A stretch of 20,454 nucleotides of DNA from a virus. The stretch lies in the IMG/VR virus record IMGVR_UViG_3300042731_003602, positions 1 through 20,454 of that record; one strand, given 5' to 3'. Of this stretch, positions 14,547-20,454 are shown one piece after another. Position 1 is the stretch's first letter. Each line of letters begins with the position of its first letter. The translations under genes and the position numbers were made by a program. The notes beneath the pieces were generated by a model, which was given only the letters and a program-made list of their open reading frames with translations, had not been told where the DNA came from and made no database searches.

Positions 14547-16325
14547 TCATTTAAGCTCTTCAGTCTCCACTACTTCATATTGAGATATTAATTTATTAGC
14601 TAAAGATGCAACAACTATCATCAATTCACAATCAAACATATGATTGTCTTTTCGTACTGGCAACCATTCATATTTGATTCTGCCTTTTATATCTTGTATT
14701 TGGACTCTCTTTTCTGCGGTAACTTGCCTAGTGTACTCATTACAAGTATCACCCGCTATCGTCCAATCCCCAATCATACCTTGGATTAACTCAGCTAACA
14801 TATCTTTGATTCCATCATTAGACCAAAGAAACAATCTTATTGCTTTGTGCAACCCATGTTCTTTTGTTCCTATACCTACTTCAGCCTTCGTCCACGTCCA
14901 TAATTGCGTGCTTATTCTTCCTGTCTTAGCATTCCTGTGCCTAAATCCCGCACTACCTGAACCTTTCATTGGCTTCCATCCATGCCTTTGGCAGAATTTA
15001 TAGACAGACGCTGAGTCAAATCCTGAATCCACCATGCAATTGTCTGCATGAACATTATTCTTCTCTGCTACCTCAAGCAACTCAACATCACTTTCGGCTC
15101 TACCATAATCTATCAATCTTGATTTTGCCCCCTCTTTGGCGAACCCTCTCACAACATACCAATAGTGCATACCACCTTTGGCTTGTTTATCGGCAGACAA
15201 AAACCTTATTTCTTCTTCTTCCCATTCATCACCCAATTTATATTCTCTAGCACGGGATTTAAGTTGACCAAAATCCTCAAAATCTCCCAACCTATCTTCC
15301 CAAGGCTCTCCTAATGATTCGTTTATAAAATCCTTTAATGGCGACGTATCTCCATTATATGTCGATTGTTTAGCTAATAAAAACTCTTCGACTAAATCTC
15401 TCCACTTTACCCAAGGAGGCAACAAGGCATTCCAATGGTAGCTTCTTCTATTTTTAGGAGCATTTAAGTTTAATGGGATATATTTACCACTTTTTACAAA
15501 ATGTCTTCGGTCTGATGGCTCATCTTTATAGACCTCCCCACACTTGCATTTAAAATGTATTGTCTTTGATAATTCATCAAAATTATAACCTTTTTCATTC
15601 TTTGTGAGATCATTCTCCTCCCACTTCATCATTTCCCAACTCATCGGGTAATATTCATTGCATGACCTACATTGAAAGTGCCACACTCTTTGGTCTCCCT
15701 GAATATACGCACGATGAGTAGCATCATTATACATATCGGGAGTTGATACAATACAACGCCTTGCATTCCAATATGCCCTAGTTCTTTTCAGAACCATTTC
15801 TAATGCACCTTCGGGGTAGTTTCTTACCTCATCCAAAAACAACCATCTAACAGGCTTGGACTGCAATCTTGATGGTGATGACGAACCAACCACACCCAAG
15901 GACGCACTTTTTAAATGTACCTCCATTTTATTAACAGCACTTCTATCATCTATTAGTTGATCTACTACGGGCTGACAGGCTTTGATTGTAGGGATCAACC
16001 TTGTCTTCATCAAGAATGCGGCTTCCTCGGCAGTCGATGTAACCCACATTGTCGGAGCGGGTTCCTCCGAGAGAGCCCACATCAAAAGACATATCATTGT
16101 CTGAGTCTTAGCAGATTGCGCTGAACACATCACACTAATATCTGAAACTTCATTATCAGCAAAACACTCCATGAGTTCCCTTACCCACGGCGATATTTCT
16201 GACTTCCAAAAACCTTGATACGGGCTTGTTGGGTCAAGCTTTACACTTTGTTCAGCCCACTCCCATGTTGTCCTTGTGTCGGGAGGCTTCCAACTTCTTT
16301 TAGCAGATGACTCAACTATCCCCAT
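14547..16325 (-). CDS. terminase large subunit, GpA family
   Basis: 592 aa, a normal length for the lambda gpA family. It is the ATPase/nuclease motor that cuts concatemeric DNA and drives it through the portal. Visible features: TWEWAEQSVKL near the N-terminus; an ATP-binding loop MCSAQSAKTQT (66-76), where the usual QSGKT reads QSAKT; the Walker B strand WLFLDEVRNYP (161-171); a CRSC…CKC cluster (C219, C222, C260, C262) that looks like a zinc ribbon; and a C-terminal nuclease domain with acidic residues in FLSADKQ (D379) and CMVDSGFDS (D433). The C-terminal VRKDNHMFDCELM segment is also typical. It is separated from terS by five genes, an unusual arrangement. It stops one base before the next gene starts, suggesting coupling. 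Confidence 0.95.
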   Translation of the reverse strand: MGIVESSAKRSWKPPDTRTTWEWAEQSVKLDPTSPYQGFWKSEISPWVRELMECFADNEVSDISVMCSAQSAKTQTMICLLMWALSEEPAPTMWVTSTAEEAAFLMKTRLIPTIKACQPVVDQLIDDRSAVNKMEVHLKSASLGVVGSSSPSRLQSKPVRWLFLDEVRNYPEGALEMVLKRTRAYWNARRCIVSTPDMYNDATHRAYIQGDQRVWHFQCRSCNEYYPMSWEMMKWEENDLTKNEKGYNFDELSKTIHFKCKCGEVYKDEPSDRRHFVKSGKYIPLNLNAPKNRRSYHWNALLPPWVKWRDLVEEFLLAKQSTYNGDTSPLKDFINESLGEPWEDRLGDFEDFGQLKSRAREYKLGDEWEEEEIRFLSADKQAKGGMHYWYVVRGFAKEGAKSRLIDYGRAESDVELLEVAEKNNVHADNCMVDSGFDSASVYKFCQRHGWKPMKGSGSAGFRHRNAKTGRISTQLWTWTKAEVGIGTKEHGLHKAIRLFLWSNDGIKDMLAELIQGMIGDWTIAGDTCNEYTRQVTAEKRVQIQDIKGRIKYEWLPVRKDNHMFDCELMIVVASLANKLISQYEVVETEELK

Positions 16326-16364: not shown

Positions 16365-17282
16365 TTAATCGGCTCTTGTGGCTTCATATTTTAAATGATG
16401 AGTGCTTAAGTCTTTCATCCTTTCCACATAGAATCTAATCCACACAGCACCTAATGGCTTCGGTGGTCTGCCCTTTTCCATATGAAAGCCTGAATCCTTC
16501 ACTCCATATTCATTTTTATAAGTTGGTATTTTAATATGAAGTTGCTCATCAATATATTCAGTCCCGTCATGGGTAATCCTACTACGAGCATTAGTAAAAA
16601 ACCAAGAATCATGGGTATGCCCCGTAGCCACAATATTAGCATCTGGGTGAGTAACTCCCATGCGATTCGCCCCAATGACTCCCTTGGTAACGGGTCCACC
16701 ACCACCCGCTCCATGAAACATGTAGAGCCATACATGCTTCCCAAGCTTTCTAAACTTTCCATTTCTGTCTCTGTACCTAGCTCTAATCCCGATCCAATTT
16801 GCAATTTGCCCTGACTTAATTTTTGAGCCCGTTCTTCCATTGACAAGATCAACCAACCGCTGAGTGAGATCAGTTTCTCTGTGCTTGTAGACAGCTGTTT
16901 CGTGGTTTCCTCTGCCCATGACAAGAATGTTCTTTGAATAAGGCTCAAGAAATTCCGAATAGGTATTAACAAGGCTATCAAGATAACTGCCCGTCTTATG
17001 TATTTCTTTGATGTCATTTTTACTTGCTCTTGGATCGCCTTTGCCCTGCATTGCACAGAACGCATCTCCATTATCTAAAATAAAAGCATTCCTTTCTATT
17101 GCTTGATCAAGATGTTTTCTTTCTAATCTATTATCTGAATGTGGATTGTCATGGTGTGCATCACTTCTTAATAAACACCAAAACTCTTTTTTACTTGGAA
17201 GTTCTGATGGGAAATCCAAATCAATGAAAAATATTCCCTCGCTTTTTTTTGTAACTTTGAACGGCTTTTTATCATGCATCAT
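16365..17282 (-). CDS. calcineurin-like metallophosphoesterase
   Basis: 305 aa. All family signatures are present in order: D-x-H in RSDAHHDNP (residues 39-47; D41, H43), GD in NGDAFC (71-76; D73), GNHE in GRGNHETA (123-130), a metal histidine in FHGAGG (H190), and the closing GHTH at 221-224. These are the ligands of a two-metal site, so the enzyme should be active on a phosphoester. Substrates in this superfamily range from DNA ends to nucleotides and proteins, and the sequence does not choose. Long insertions separate the boxes. It starts in an ATGA overlap with the glycosyltransferase gene. A strong GGAGGAG lies one base before the first ATG, and a second ATG three bases further on is at better spacing. 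It precedes terL by 39 bases. A role with the neighbouring modification enzymes or in DNA processing at packaging is inference. Confidence 0.85.
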   Translation of the reverse strand: MMHDKKPFKVTKKSEGIFFIDLDFPSELPSKKEFWCLLRSDAHHDNPHSDNRLERKHLDQAIERNAFILDNGDAFCAMQGKGDPRASKNDIKEIHKTGSYLDSLVNTYSEFLEPYSKNILVMGRGNHETAVYKHRETDLTQRLVDLVNGRTGSKIKSGQIANWIGIRARYRDRNGKFRKLGKHVWLYMFHGAGGGGPVTKGVIGANRMGVTHPDANIVATGHTHDSWFFTNARSRITHDGTEYIDEQLHIKIPTYKNEYGVKDSGFHMEKGRPPKPLGAVWIRFYVERMKDLSTHHLKYEATRAD

Positions 17283-18031
17283 ACTCCTCCTATGGGTATT
17301 TTTATTATGGGGTTGATGTCATAGCTCTGTTGTCTCTTCCTTTGCACTTGAGAAGCACCTGAATCAAACTGAATAATTTTCGATCCCCACTTTTTTCGCA
17401 ACATATCATTATGCTCTACTTCTTTTTCAATATTTCGATACTCCGCACAACCTCCTGCTAATGTAGCTTGATCGCAGTCATAATGGTACATATTTAATCT
17501 AAGATTTCTTCTGTACTTATTCAATACTTGCAGGGTCATATCATAATCTTCCTTTAGATATATTTTTTCATCATATCTTAGGTCATTATTTATATGGGCT
17601 TGAAATGGTCCCCCGATATATTGTCTTGTACCAAAAGGAGTATATTCACGATAGCTCCCTTTATCACCCAAGCAATTAATCCCCCAAAACTTCACATCTA
17701 AATCACGGGCGAGCAAACAACCTTCTTCGATCATATTATACACACCCTCTTCGCTTAGCTTTACATGGTCACCACCATTCCATCTACCCAAGCTATGGAT
17801 GTCATCATCTAACAAGATTATATTTTCATCTTCAGCATTATCTAAAATATAATTTCTAACACGGGATAAATTACCTTGGGCAGAATCAGGTACTATCCAT
17901 ATTTTATCATGTATACCTTCGTAATCCTTCTCCTCAGACTCCCTTACTACATAAACGGTATCTTTTAAATATTTATGAGTGCGACATAGACCCGACCTTT
18001 TGAATGTAGGGGAATAGATTTTATATTTCAT
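17279..18031 (-). CDS. GT-A-like glycosyltransferase, resembling TET-associated (TAGT) type
   Basis: 250 aa from the ATG at 18031, which forms an ATGA overlap with the FkbM stop. An upstream TTG in frame at 18058 is less likely. It opens with KIYSPTFKRSG…THKYL…VYVVRESEEKDY, then SRVRNYIL and ILLDDDIHSLGR. This is a Rossmann-like GT-A layout with a DDD (residues 75-77) where the metal/nucleotide-sugar-binding DxD belongs. A later KEDYDMTL (about 160-167) offers a plausible acidic catalytic or acceptor-site residue. The opening 'IYxPTxxR' plus 'VVxESE..Y' plus 'DDD' reminds me of the glycosyltransferases found beside TET/JBP base oxidases in phages. No TET/JBP gene is in the window. Alternatives are a sugar transferase acting on virion protein or host surface glycan. 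The fold is fairly secure; the subtype is tentative. Confidence 0.65.
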   Translation of the reverse strand: MKYKIYSPTFKRSGLCRTHKYLKDTVYVVRESEEKDYEGIHDKIWIVPDSAQGNLSRVRNYILDNAEDENIILLDDDIHSLGRWNGGDHVKLSEEGVYNMIEEGCLLARDLDVKFWGINCLGDKGSYREYTPFGTRQYIGGPFQAHINNDLRYDEKIYLKEDYDMTLQVLNKYRRNLRLNMYHYDCDQATLAGGCAEYRNIEKEVEHNDMLRKKWGSKIIQFDSGASQVQRKRQQSYDINPIIKIPIGGV

Positions 18032-18699
18032 TTTCTTGCTCTTATTATTTGCATCCAACCCGCAGGGTCTCTGTTGCCTTGCACCTTATCGAAATTTGCA
18101 TCTAATATTTCAAATACTTCCTTCAACTTAGTATTTGACTCATCCTTCAACATTGTTCTGTGCCATTCTACAACAATAGATTCTATGCCACTCCAATCTT
18201 CTAAGTGTTTAATAATGTCATACTCGGAAGCCTCGCAATCCATTTTAATTTTATTAGGATTATATTCTTTTATTAAATCATTAATACTAACGGCATCGAC
18301 TACGGTTCTAATTCTTCCCCTTTTAGGTATTATTGTGTCCCCATCTCTTCTTGAACCATTATTAATAAAAAGCTCTATTGTTTTATTATTTCCTCCCAAC
18401 ACCGCTTTTTTTAAGGGTATGACTGCACCTTCTCTTGGATTCTGATTAATATTTAAAACAGCTAAATTATAATTTTCTTCCTCAGGTTCAAAACCAATAC
18501 ATACTTTTGCCTTTGATCCATAGAATACACTAAAGGCACCAATGTTCATGCCTATATCCAAGACTACATCTTTGGAATTTACTTTAAGCCATTTCTGATA
18601 GGTTGCAGGATGAGCAACCTCATCAATAACCCATCTATCTGACTTGTTGTGCCTAAATGTAAAAGTTTTTAGACCTATTTGCCTTGTTTCAGTTTCCAT
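18028..18699 (-). CDS. FkbM-family SAM-dependent methyltransferase
   Basis: 223 aa, close to the usual length of an FkbM-type domain. The SAM-binding motif I is clear at residues 45-57 (VVLDIGMNIGAFS), with the acidic residue that binds the ribose at the end of strand 2 (FEPEEENY, 70-77). The later motif (KIKMDCEASEYDII, about 152-165) and the 'VVEWH' strand are typical of FkbM. Known members mostly O-methylate sugars, polyketides or related small groups, not DNA bases directly. It overlaps the ParB-like gene by 11 bases and the glycosyltransferase by an ATGA, so the three are likely made together. An attractive inference is that it methylates a sugar added by the next gene's product, either on DNA or on a virion or host glycan. 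The substrate cannot be read from the sequence. Confidence 0.85.
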   Translation of the reverse strand: METETRQIGLKTFTFRHNKSDRWVIDEVAHPATYQKWLKVNSKDVVLDIGMNIGAFSVFYGSKAKVCIGFEPEEENYNLAVLNINQNPREGAVIPLKKAVLGGNNKTIELFINNGSRRDGDTIIPKRGRIRTVVDAVSINDLIKEYNPNKIKMDCEASEYDIIKHLEDWSGIESIVVEWHRTMLKDESNTKLKEVFEILDANFDKVQGNRDPAGWMQIIRARK

Positions 18700-19297
18700 T
18701 TAATTTTTTAAAATAATCGGTTCCCTTGATAACTCTGCCGATACCTTTACTCCAAGGCTTGCCATTAGATCGCTTCGAATGCACAGAATCCAAATCAAAA
18801 TGAGTTTGTGCCTGCAACCAATCAATATCATTATCAAAATATATAACTACATAATTATTGGATTCATTTAGCACTTCTGAGAATATTACTTCAGGCTCTT
18901 CCTTCTCATCTTCTTCAGTTAGCTCAGACAGAACATCATCAGCATCAAAACCCCAATCTATAAGATCATCACTATCAAAATTATTAGCTAATAAATCCCA
19001 ATCCCATTGACCACCATTCTTGTTGAGGCGAATGTTTAACTCCTTTTCTTTGTCAAGGGAAAGTTTTACTTCTACGCAGGGGATTTTCTTATTTCCCAAC
19101 TCTGACCATATCCGTAATCTTTGGTGACCACCGATTACTACATTTTCTCTGTCCTTGTGCATATTTACGAGGACTGGCTCAACCACGCCAAAATCTTTAA
19201 GGCTTTGCTTTAAATCCTCATATTGCTTTTTGGTCAATTCCCTTGGATTATATTCGGCAGGCTTAAGGTCTATAATCTCCCTATCTATTGTTTTCAT
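18689..19297 (-). CDS. ParB-fold (ParB/Srx N-terminal domain) protein
   Basis: 202 aa. Residues 1-80 match the ParB/sulfiredoxin-like domain: a leading I-x-LKPAEYNPRE segment (8-20), a helix (QYEDLKQSLKDFG) followed by VVEPVLVN, and the signature VIGGHQRLR at 54-62. In ParB-type proteins this box binds nucleotide (CTP in true ParB, ATP in related phosphotransferases). The next part (ELNIRLNKNGGQWDWDLLAN, 86-105) is the usual continuation in phage members of the family. The last 55 residues (NNYVVIYFDNDIDWLQAQ…) form a small extra domain. There is no ParB-type HTH, so chromosome partitioning is unlikely. In phages such proteins are usually next to DNA methyltransferases or DNA-modification genes. 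Here the neighbours are a methyltransferase-fold enzyme and a glycosyltransferase, which suggests a modification role. The ATGA start overlaps the previous stop. Confidence 0.85.
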   Translation of the reverse strand: MKTIDREIIDLKPAEYNPRELTKKQYEDLKQSLKDFGVVEPVLVNMHKDRENVVIGGHQRLRIWSELGNKKIPCVEVKLSLDKEKELNIRLNKNGGQWDWDLLANNFDSDDLIDWGFDADDVLSELTEEDEKEEPEVIFSEVLNESNNYVVIYFDNDIDWLQAQTHFDLDSVHSKRSNGKPWSKGIGRVIKGTDYFKKLNGN

Positions 19298-19695
19298 AAT
19301 TTCTTTCTTTGTCCTCTTCCTTTTATATTAAATTTTTTACTAAAGTTGATAGCTTGTTTACTTAACGATTGTTTAAATACATTTATTCCTTTTTTCTTTG
19401 CTATCTCAGACAATGGCTCACCATTGAATAATTCGGGTCTTAAAACCCAACACATAGCTATTGCTTTTCTCATGACTGTCTTACCATACCCTTCTGAGTT
19501 TTTGTCTCCCATAGTAAGCCATGTCAACATTTCTCTTAATATTTCTCCCATCTTTTCAACTTCTTCGGGCTCGTAAACCTCTTCACTCGTATCACCATCC
19601 AACTCATCGTAAGGAAAATGATGGCATTGTTGCTTATCCAATGTATCAGCTCTTGTTTCATCAAAATGGTATAAGGTACTATGCTTCCCCATCAT
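19294..19695 (-). CDS. small HTH-like protein of unknown function
   Basis: 133 aa. The N-terminal third is acidic (EEVYEPEEVEKMGEILREM), the middle is helical, and the C-terminus is basic. Residues about 98-125 (PLSEIAKKKG…SLSKQAINFSKKFNIKG) look like a helix-turn-helix of the sigma-region-4 or transposase/resolvase kind: 'select the programme, choose the helix, bind'. It ends in KGRGQRKKL. I do not recognise a named family. It starts inside terS (17-base overlap, two adjacent ATG codons at 19695 and 19692, weak ribosome site) and ends with an ATGA overlap onto the ParB-like gene. Its expression is therefore probably tied to both. It could be a late-gene regulator, a second DNA-binding packaging factor, or a partner of the ParB-like protein; nothing decides between these. 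Confidence 0.6.
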   Translation of the reverse strand: MMGKHSTLYHFDETRADTLDKQQCHHFPYDELDGDTSEEVYEPEEVEKMGEILREMLTWLTMGDKNSEGYGKTVMRKAIAMCWVLRPELFNGEPLSEIAKKKGINVFKQSLSKQAINFSKKFNIKGRGQRKKL

Positions 19696-20353
19696 TATCT
19701 ATTTTTTGCTTTGTATGGTTTATCCACTCATTTTCATGCAAACTTTTAAGAGCATCCACTACACCCTGCTTAATTATCTTTTCTGCCTCTGCTATTGATT
19801 GACCCACAACTTGTGGCGCTAATGAAGACGGCAAAGATAATAACTCTCTTTTCGCTTGCTGTACCATTTCTGAAACATGTTGGTCAATATCCACATTAGG
19901 TGTATACTCTCCCCGAAGAATACCAACTTGTATTTCTAACTTCTCATTTTGTAGCATCATGCTACGGATTTGCTCGGACTCCTTACTTACTAAATCTCCT
20001 GCCCTAGCTCCATGCAAATCCTTCCACTCCACGACTTCCCTAATGCTAAATCTTCCATCTGGCTTTTCTTTAGGAAACGTTGGGTCTTTCTTCCATCTCT
20101 GTATTGTTTTTCGATTTACATTAAGATGTTTTGCTAACTCTGATTGGTTTTTAGCATATGATGTCACATTTGTCCCAATCATATCTAAATCTTCTACATC
20201 ACCAATGTCTCCATGTTTTTTTACATACCCATAGTACCACTCCATCTCTCTTTGATTGAGAGGTTTGTTATCCATCAGCTTCTTATTCAACAATTTAAAT
20301 TGCTTTGCCTCCAAGGCATCTAAGTGCTCTTTTCCTAACTTTTTTTCTTGCAT
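19679..20353 (-). CDS. terminase small subunit, Nu1-like
   Basis: 224-aa protein, probably the DNA-recognition subunit of the packaging motor. It would bind the packaging start site and bring in the large subunit encoded about 3.4 kb downstream. A helix-turn-helix is visible at residues 70-90 (QSELAKHLNVNRKTIQRWKK), followed by a short wing with RFSIREVVEW (101-110). This is the winged-helix layout of lambda gpNu1 and of MerR-like excisionase domains. A charged helical linker follows (130-150), then a helical C-terminal part with LLSLPSSLAPQVVG (171-184), a pattern I associate with Nu1-like small terminases. The start at 20353 is chosen on the strong AGGAG; an in-frame ATG at 20413 would add a hydrophobic leader. 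It overlaps the next gene by 17 bases. The call rests on the HTH, its position at the head of the packaging block, and C-terminal resemblance. Confidence 0.75.
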   Translation of the reverse strand: MQEKKLGKEHLDALEAKQFKLLNKKLMDNKPLNQREMEWYYGYVKKHGDIGDVEDLDMIGTNVTSYAKNQSELAKHLNVNRKTIQRWKKDPTFPKEKPDGRFSIREVVEWKDLHGARAGDLVSKESEQIRSMMLQNEKLEIQVGILRGEYTPNVDIDQHVSEMVQQAKRELLSLPSSLAPQVVGQSIAEAEKIIKQGVVDALKSLHENEWINHTKQKIDNDGEA

Positions 20354-20357
20354 TAAA

Positions 20358-20363
20358 TCTCCT
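20358..20363 (-). promoter_or_regulatory. ribosome binding site of the small terminase gene
   Basis: AGGAGA lies four bases before the ATG at 20353. It is one of the best Shine-Dalgarno sequences in the window and decides the start. The in-frame ATG further upstream at 20413 has only A-rich sequence before it and would add a 20-residue hydrophobic leader that a terminase should not have. An imperfect inverted repeat (CTGCT-AAC-AGTAG) sits just upstream, significance unknown. No convincing -35/-10 promoter was found in 20354-20454. Confidence 0.7.
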
Positions 20364-20409
20364 AATACTACTGTTAGCAGAATTAATAAAGACTTTTTTA
20401 TGAGACATT

Positions 20410-20454
20410 TCATTTTTTTTTACTCACAAATGGACTCCACCCCTCCTCCCGAAC
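20410..20454 (-). CDS. possible 3' end of the preceding gene (partial)
   Basis: Reading from the right edge, the frame starting exactly at 20454 gives VREEGWSPFVSKKK and then TGA at 20410-20412. That TGA overlaps an ATG as ATGA, the junction type seen at seven other places here. The other two frames also end in short stops (…SGGGVESICE and …FGRRGGVHL), so which frame is coding cannot be decided from 14 codons. No function can be given. The purine-rich start of this stretch (GGGAGGAGGGGTGG on the minus strand) could simply be coding sequence. Confidence 0.3.
   Translation of the reverse strand, partial: VREEGWSPFVSKKK

Follow-up and report, generated by a model that had tools for sequence, protein, structure and literature searches.

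What do a ParB-fold protein, an FkbM-type methyltransferase, a glycosyltransferase and a phosphoesterase do between the two terminase subunit genes of a phage, and do they act together? This question is raised by the DNA analysed here, a 20,454-base IMG/VR fragment (hereafter the window). Questions on the gene content of the whole genome were put to relatives of this fragment.

Results

Gene layout of the terS–terL interval

The first-pass annotation had recognised four genes linked by one 11-base and two ATGA overlaps, and all of these features are confirmed on the minus strand (Table 1). The ParB and FkbM genes share 11 bases (18689-18699), and the TAGT/phosphoesterase junction is ATGA (17279-17282). 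The FkbM/TAGT junction is also ATGA, provided that TAGT begins at ATG 18031; the start chosen by the ORF caller, TTG 18058 (17279-18058), lies upstream of the start in most relatives. The four genes indeed lie between terS and terL as had been described, but the number of genes filling this distance is five, namely the 133-aa gene, ParB, FkbM, TAGT and the phosphoesterase. The 133-aa gene overlaps its neighbours on both sides, and its product has no Pfam or PHROG match and is conserved solely within the clade of the window (cluster c9, 13 members). The same layout is seen again in IMG/VR contigs with TAGTs 49-97% identical to the one in the window, and therefore the arrangement is not a matter of chance.

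Table 1. Genes and domains in the terminase region of the window
Feature	Position	Strand	Basis and assignment
Terminase small subunit terS	19679..20413	-	phrog_57, E=5e-21
133-aa protein, no assigned family	19294..19695	-	Between terS and ParB; cluster c9
ParB_N-domain protein, 202 aa	18689..19297	-	PF02195 and position upstream of TAGT; core component
ParB C-terminal domain, partner-specific	18692..18883	-	30-locus alignment; motif NNYVVLxFDNxxDWLxAxTHF...GIGRV
FkbM-type SAM methyltransferase, 223 aa	18028..18699	-	PF05050; variable-slot occupant
TAGT-family GT-A glycosyltransferase, 250 aa from ATG 18031	17279..18031	-	PF20691, phrog_842; core component
Calcineurin-like metallophosphoesterase, 305 aa	16365..17282	-	phrog_7339 and sequence motifs; accessory, outside core
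Terminase large subunit terL, GpA type	14547..16325	-	PF05876/PF20454; phrog_15, E=1e-88

Protein assignments

The identities proposed earlier for ParB, FkbM and TAGT are borne out by profile searches, all with scores above the Pfam cut-offs. TAGT matches PF20691 over profile positions 1-204 of 205 (E=1.3e-9, 38.7 bits against a gathering score of 27.5) and phrog_842, the beta-glucosyl-HMC-alpha-glucosyltransferase family (E=3e-16). The enzyme is thus of the TAGT type, as had been suspected, and belongs with the T-even DNA glucosyltransferase families. Residues D75-D77 and D162/D164, the acidic metal-binding motif of the GT-A fold, are invariant across 60-62 sequences, and the DDD metal motif and the LKEDYD motif are invariant or almost so in 60-62 relatives. 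When the structure model (pLDDT 88.9) was used for a fold search in BFVD, the best named viral matches were TAGTs, including a T-even-type HMC glucosyltransferase, and the top solved structures in the PDB were transferases of wall teichoic acid or rhamnose together with AvpGT, a glycosyltransferase whose crystals contained a nucleoside (Ara-A). Sequence searches of solved structures with TAGT, FkbM and the phosphoesterase gave no matches. From its family and context, TAGT is predicted to transfer a sugar to DNA; the GT-A fold is generic, so that a non-DNA acceptor is possible.

ParB matches PF02195 (E=7.6e-9), and its profile finds ParB/Noc CTPases (E about 1e-12 to 1e-7) and sulfiredoxin in the PDB. 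The N-terminus is the ParB/Srx nucleotide-binding domain and the C-terminus is a TAGT-linked domain, which shows 16 invariant columns in an alignment of 30 loci and for which the structure model is of low confidence. A ParB relative occurs in 210 phage records. A search of 50,697 GenBank phages with the C-terminal domain yielded a single record, Javan291 (from Streptococcus marmotae HTS5), and no other phage among them has a TAGT match that spans 80% or more of the query. No ParA is annotated near the ParB-TAGT pair in Javan291 or Jefe.

The FkbM protein matches PF05050 (E=2.5e-9, 37.9 bits against a gathering score of 22.7). The phosphoesterase matches phrog_7339 (E=6e-9) and no Pfam family, and its metal-binding motifs SDxHHD, NGD, GNHE and GHTHD are kept. 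An alternate-frame ORF of 190 codons lies within the phosphoesterase gene.

Linkage of ParB and TAGT

Viral and bacterial contigs were scanned with a TAGT alignment, ParB playing no part in the choice of loci; the best 80 of 386 viral loci were taken together with 10 bacterial loci, among them Bacteroides, Treponema, Victivallaceae, Phascolarctobacterium and Roseibacillus. ParB lies no more than 900 bases upstream of TAGT in 80 of the 81 best-scoring loci that have at least 700 bases upstream. The lone exception, L047, has a second TAGT upstream that reaches the contig end. In the converse scan, where the query was the 64-residue ParB C-terminal domain alone, TAGT is directly downstream, within about 730 bases, in 80/80 of the best-scoring loci kept. 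Since the two sets overlap in contigs and each was taken from the top of a larger set ranked by score, the counts demonstrate near-strict linkage and not an exact frequency. Repeated co-occurrence, for which the first-pass annotation had proposed a neighbourhood survey, is thus very strong for ParB and TAGT, and this near-inseparable pair is the core unit. ParB also accompanies other, independent TAGT lineages, in the Microbacterium phages Jefe and Gingerbug and in Lilbeanie; Jefe additionally encodes a UDP-glucose dehydrogenase.

The C-terminus of ParB is matched to its partner. Across 57 non-redundant loci, the C-terminal domain tracks TAGT when the N-terminal domain is accounted for (partial r=0.67; 0/2000 permutations), and the N-terminal domain does so far less (0.23). 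In L011, L012, L063 and L086, the ParB N-terminal domain is 76-81% identical to that of the window and TAGT 49-53%; TAGT has been exchanged within the terminase clade of the window. The co-variation fits a contact surface between the C-terminal domain and TAGT. However, as the ParB C-terminus adjoins TAGT on the DNA, recombination linkage could mimic co-evolution, and a recombination breakpoint inside ParB would give the same pattern.

Position beside the terminase

The pair adjoins the terminase in nearly every sampled phage, many of these being unrelated. Of the 83 loci with room for it, 74 have a terL match no further than 4.5 kb downstream of TAGT, and most of the remaining 9 carry a terL-cluster member missed by the stricter search. 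The adjoining terL proteins fall into four Pfam groups: GpA, Terminase_6, TerL (PF03354/PF20441) and Terminase_3. The pair stands between terS and terL in the clade of the window and directly before terS in most other loci. In Microbacterium and Gordonia the pairs are not beside terminase genes, and thus the terminase position is common and not essential.

The variable slot and the phosphoesterase

The slot between ParB and TAGT is either empty or occupied by a second TAGT, a class I methyltransferase (PF13489), a radical-SAM/SPASM protein (PF04055/PF13186) or FkbM. FkbM was found there solely in the window and the closely related contigs L002 and L003, and is a lineage-specific slot occupant. 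Judging from its family and from the slot, the simplest reading is that it would O-methylate the sugar once this has been added.

The phosphoesterase has homologues unlinked to TAGT in L008, L010 and Rhodobacteraceae phage LS06-2018-MD07, the last with no TAGT detected, and for this reason it is not assigned to the module; it is a passenger of the terminase clade of the window, outside the ParB-TAGT core. The earlier proposal that the four genes make one set is therefore not supported, as FkbM only fills a variable slot and the phosphoesterase follows the terminase clade. Both come and go among the loci irrespective of ParB-TAGT, and a single pathway of all four was rejected on this ground.

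ParB partners in other phages

The ParB N-terminal domain is similar to the N-terminal region of phage proteins that join ParB to a DNA methyltransferase (phrog_498, E=2e-33). Upstream of terS-terL, Streptococcus phage Javan124 encodes a cytosine methyltransferase as well as a fusion of ParB to an N6/N4 methyltransferase, and the ParB-TAGT pair of Javan291 is found in the same place as this fusion. In gut phages, proteins of comparable length that are annotated as ParB-like are encoded near the terminase. Mom is preceded by a ParB protein in phiEf11, Sonny and MenE; it is identified by Pfam in phiEf11 (E=1.8e-45) and by similarity to the phiEf11 protein in the other two. Mom homologues more distant than these have no annotated ParB alongside. 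Published work places ParB genes beside the DNA cytosine carboxymethyltransferase CmoX, with the role of ParB stated to be unknown (PMC12783734), and the ParB-like ATPase DpdB acts in the insertion of deazaguanine into DNA (PMC12839542).

Since the ParB N-terminal domain is fused to N6/N4 methyltransferases before terminases and stands beside Mom, DNA is the most likely target, and the ParB-TAGT module is probably DNA-directed. Of the two readings offered initially, DNA modification is thus favoured over protein or LPS glycosylation by the TAGT family, by the ParB linkage and by the occurrence of ParB with methyltransferases and Mom; the part that joined all the genes in one pathway is given up.

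Search for base-preparing enzymes

The thymidylate-synthase family (PF00303), to which the dCMP hydroxymethylase of the T-even pathway belongs, has a match in 0/11 and 0/22 records, 31 different ones including complete phages, with a positive control in 9 genomes. TET/JBP (PF12851) was likewise found in 0/11, 0/22 and 0/5 records, 36 in all, with a profile for which no control genome scored above the cut-off and on contigs most of which are possibly incomplete. A 2OG-oxygenase profile had no match in 18 records, and a C5-methyltransferase (PF00145) was seen in 1/24, a single 70-kb contig. Among 34 proteins of Javan291 and 51 proteins of the 49-kb and 48-kb relatives, Pfam recognised replication and recombination genes, no base-preparing candidate and no alpha- or beta-glucosyltransferase (GT-B). 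It had been pointed out at the outset that a base-modification reading needs TET/JBP or hydroxymethyl-base genes elsewhere in the genome; these did not turn up in the 49-/48-kb relatives or the complete phages, the TET search having no above-cut-off control. Near-complete relatives and complete phages thus yielded neither a thymidylate-synthase homologue nor TET/JBP, and a C5-methyltransferase is confined to a single contig, which leaves the usual hydroxylated base unexplained. Unrecognised enzymes, incomplete contigs or supply by the host may account for this, and so may direct glycosylation of a canonical base.

Discussion

Proposed mechanism and alternatives

We consider it reasonably probable that ParB and TAGT form a two-gene phage DNA-glycosylation module with tailoring by the slot gene and shielding of the packaged DNA. 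The ParB N-terminal domain would bind nucleotide and/or DNA, and the C-terminal domain would hold or deliver the glycosyltransferase. TAGT would then move a sugar from a nucleotide-sugar onto a base of the phage DNA that accumulates for packaging, which we propose as the reason why its gene and those of the terminase are neighbours. The slot gene, FkbM in the window, may O-methylate the added sugar, and the modification may shield the packaged DNA from host nucleases.

How the base is prepared divides this proposal further. As a special case of the module, TAGT might act in a two-step hypermodification on a pyrimidine hydroxylated by a host enzyme or by one invisible to the profiles. Hydroxymethylcytosine DNA is the substrate of the characterised TAGTs, those of T2 and T6 (PMC13216743, PMC13390438), and many proteins of the ParB-TAGT genomes have no family, both of which speak for this route; we nevertheless regard it as somewhat doubtful, as none of the 31 records has a thymidylate-synthase homologue, none of the 36 a TET/JBP and 23 of 24 no C5-methyltransferase, and the scans of Javan291 and the close relatives offer no candidate. 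Rather more tentatively, ParB-TAGT may attach its sugar straight to a canonical base, an exocyclic amine being one conceivable site, so that no hydroxylation step would have to come first. The analogy is with Mom and the N6/N4 methyltransferases, which have a related ParB and act on unmodified bases. If direct glycosylation were true, ParB would be a general partner that exposes unmodified DNA to chemically different modifying enzymes, with a separate type of ParB C-terminal tail to recognise each of them.

The remaining explanations place the function elsewhere. TAGT could glycosylate a virion protein (portal, capsid or terminase) or a host surface glycan, with FkbM methylating the glycan and ParB being unrelated or regulatory. 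FkbM enzymes usually methylate sugars, teichoic-acid transferases are among the closest GT-A structures solved, and the genes are located in the packaging/head region. However, the near-complete linkage to a ParB that otherwise accompanies DNA-modifying enzymes and the assignment to sequence families of DNA glucosyltransferases make this unlikely, and as the pair is conserved beside at least four terL families, no single structural protein can be the common acceptor. Least probable, in our judgement, is a packaging-site mark, in which ParB would bind a specific phage sequence and TAGT would glycosylate pac or cos only, regulating terminase cutting. Methylation of pac in P1 regulates terminase cutting, relatives of ParB are site-specific DNA binders, and the pair adjoins several unrelated terminases; yet the signal required differs from one terminase to another, the pairs of Microbacterium and Gordonia lie away from terminase genes, and operon position accounts for the adjacency equally well.

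Comparison with known systems

The DNA-glycosylation module proposed here joins two questions left open in the literature, the function of solitary phage TAGTs (PMC13216743, 2026) and the role of ParB beside DNA-modifying enzymes (PMC12783734, 2025). The near-obligate pair, the swappable tailoring slot and the partner-specific ParB tails occur in several culturable phages or hosts, so that both questions are experimentally testable.

The window TAGT has the Pfam family (PF20691), the GT-A fold and the phage coding in common with the T-even TAGT of T2 and T6, which puts a second glucose on glucosylated hydroxymethylcytosine (PMC13216743, PMC13390438). The T-even enzyme depends on HMC synthesis and a first glucosyltransferase, whereas no hydroxymethylase or TET was found for window-type loci, and unlike the T-even enzyme the window-type TAGT has a near-universal ParB partner. 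It appears to belong among the solitary phage TAGTs without alpha-/beta-GT, which were reported in 288 of 753 phage genomes with their function left open (PMC13216743); beyond that report, we describe a constant ParB partner, a terminase location and a variable slot for one large subgroup.

Three other systems share the ParB element. In Streptococcus and gut phages, the fusions of ParB to an N6/N4 methyltransferase (phrog_498) contain the same N-terminal domain as the window ParB, but there the catalytic domain is a methyltransferase within the ParB protein itself, whereas the window has a separate glycosyltransferase. The carboxymethylcytosine loci with CmoX/CmoY also carry ParB_N beside a phage DNA-base-modifying enzyme; CmoX is a C5-methyltransferase homologue (PMC12783734), and no such enzyme was found at the window. 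In the Mom loci of phiEf11, Sonny and MenE, as in the window, a ParB_N protein precedes the modifying enzyme, and the two differ in the C-terminus of ParB, which is a CPxC zinc-ribbon-like tail beside Mom and the NNYVVL...GIGRV domain beside TAGT.

Further features of the window and of loci with the TAGT/ParB pair

Two TAGT glycosyltransferase genes follow ParB in tandem in the compared loci L008, L021 and L089, and in 32 of the 80 best-scoring loci kept from the ParB C-terminal-domain scan. One copy is near the window type and the other is divergent, as if two sugars were added one after another. L095 carries a second ParB-like gene immediately downstream of the pair. A C5-cytosine methyltransferase homologue, sought as a possible source of a modified acceptor base, occurs in only one of 24 TAGT contigs searched (G016, which bears L038).

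The 133-aa protein is conserved in 13 loci, exclusively within the window's terminase clade. Among seven close relatives, counting the window, six keep the alternate-frame ORF free of stop codons, far beyond what synonymous-codon shuffles give (0/1000); the ORF is absent from L005 and L006, and its span shows no clear extra synonymous constraint. It may be considered a candidate overlapping gene, not an established one.

In Microbacterium phage Jefe, the UDP-glucose dehydrogenase gene in the same row as TAGT suggests that the donor of this glycosyltransferase is a uronic acid.

Locations of the features
Feature	Location	Strand	Context
ParB, 76-aa protein, TAGT, UDP-glucose dehydrogenase	L019:6984-9379		Jefe; consecutive
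133-aa protein, family unknown	window 19294-19695		between terS and ParB
Alternate-frame ORF, 190 codons	window 16499-17071	minus	inside phosphoesterase gene
Second ParB-like gene	L095:3919-4518		
C5-cytosine methyltransferase homologue	G016:16578-18179
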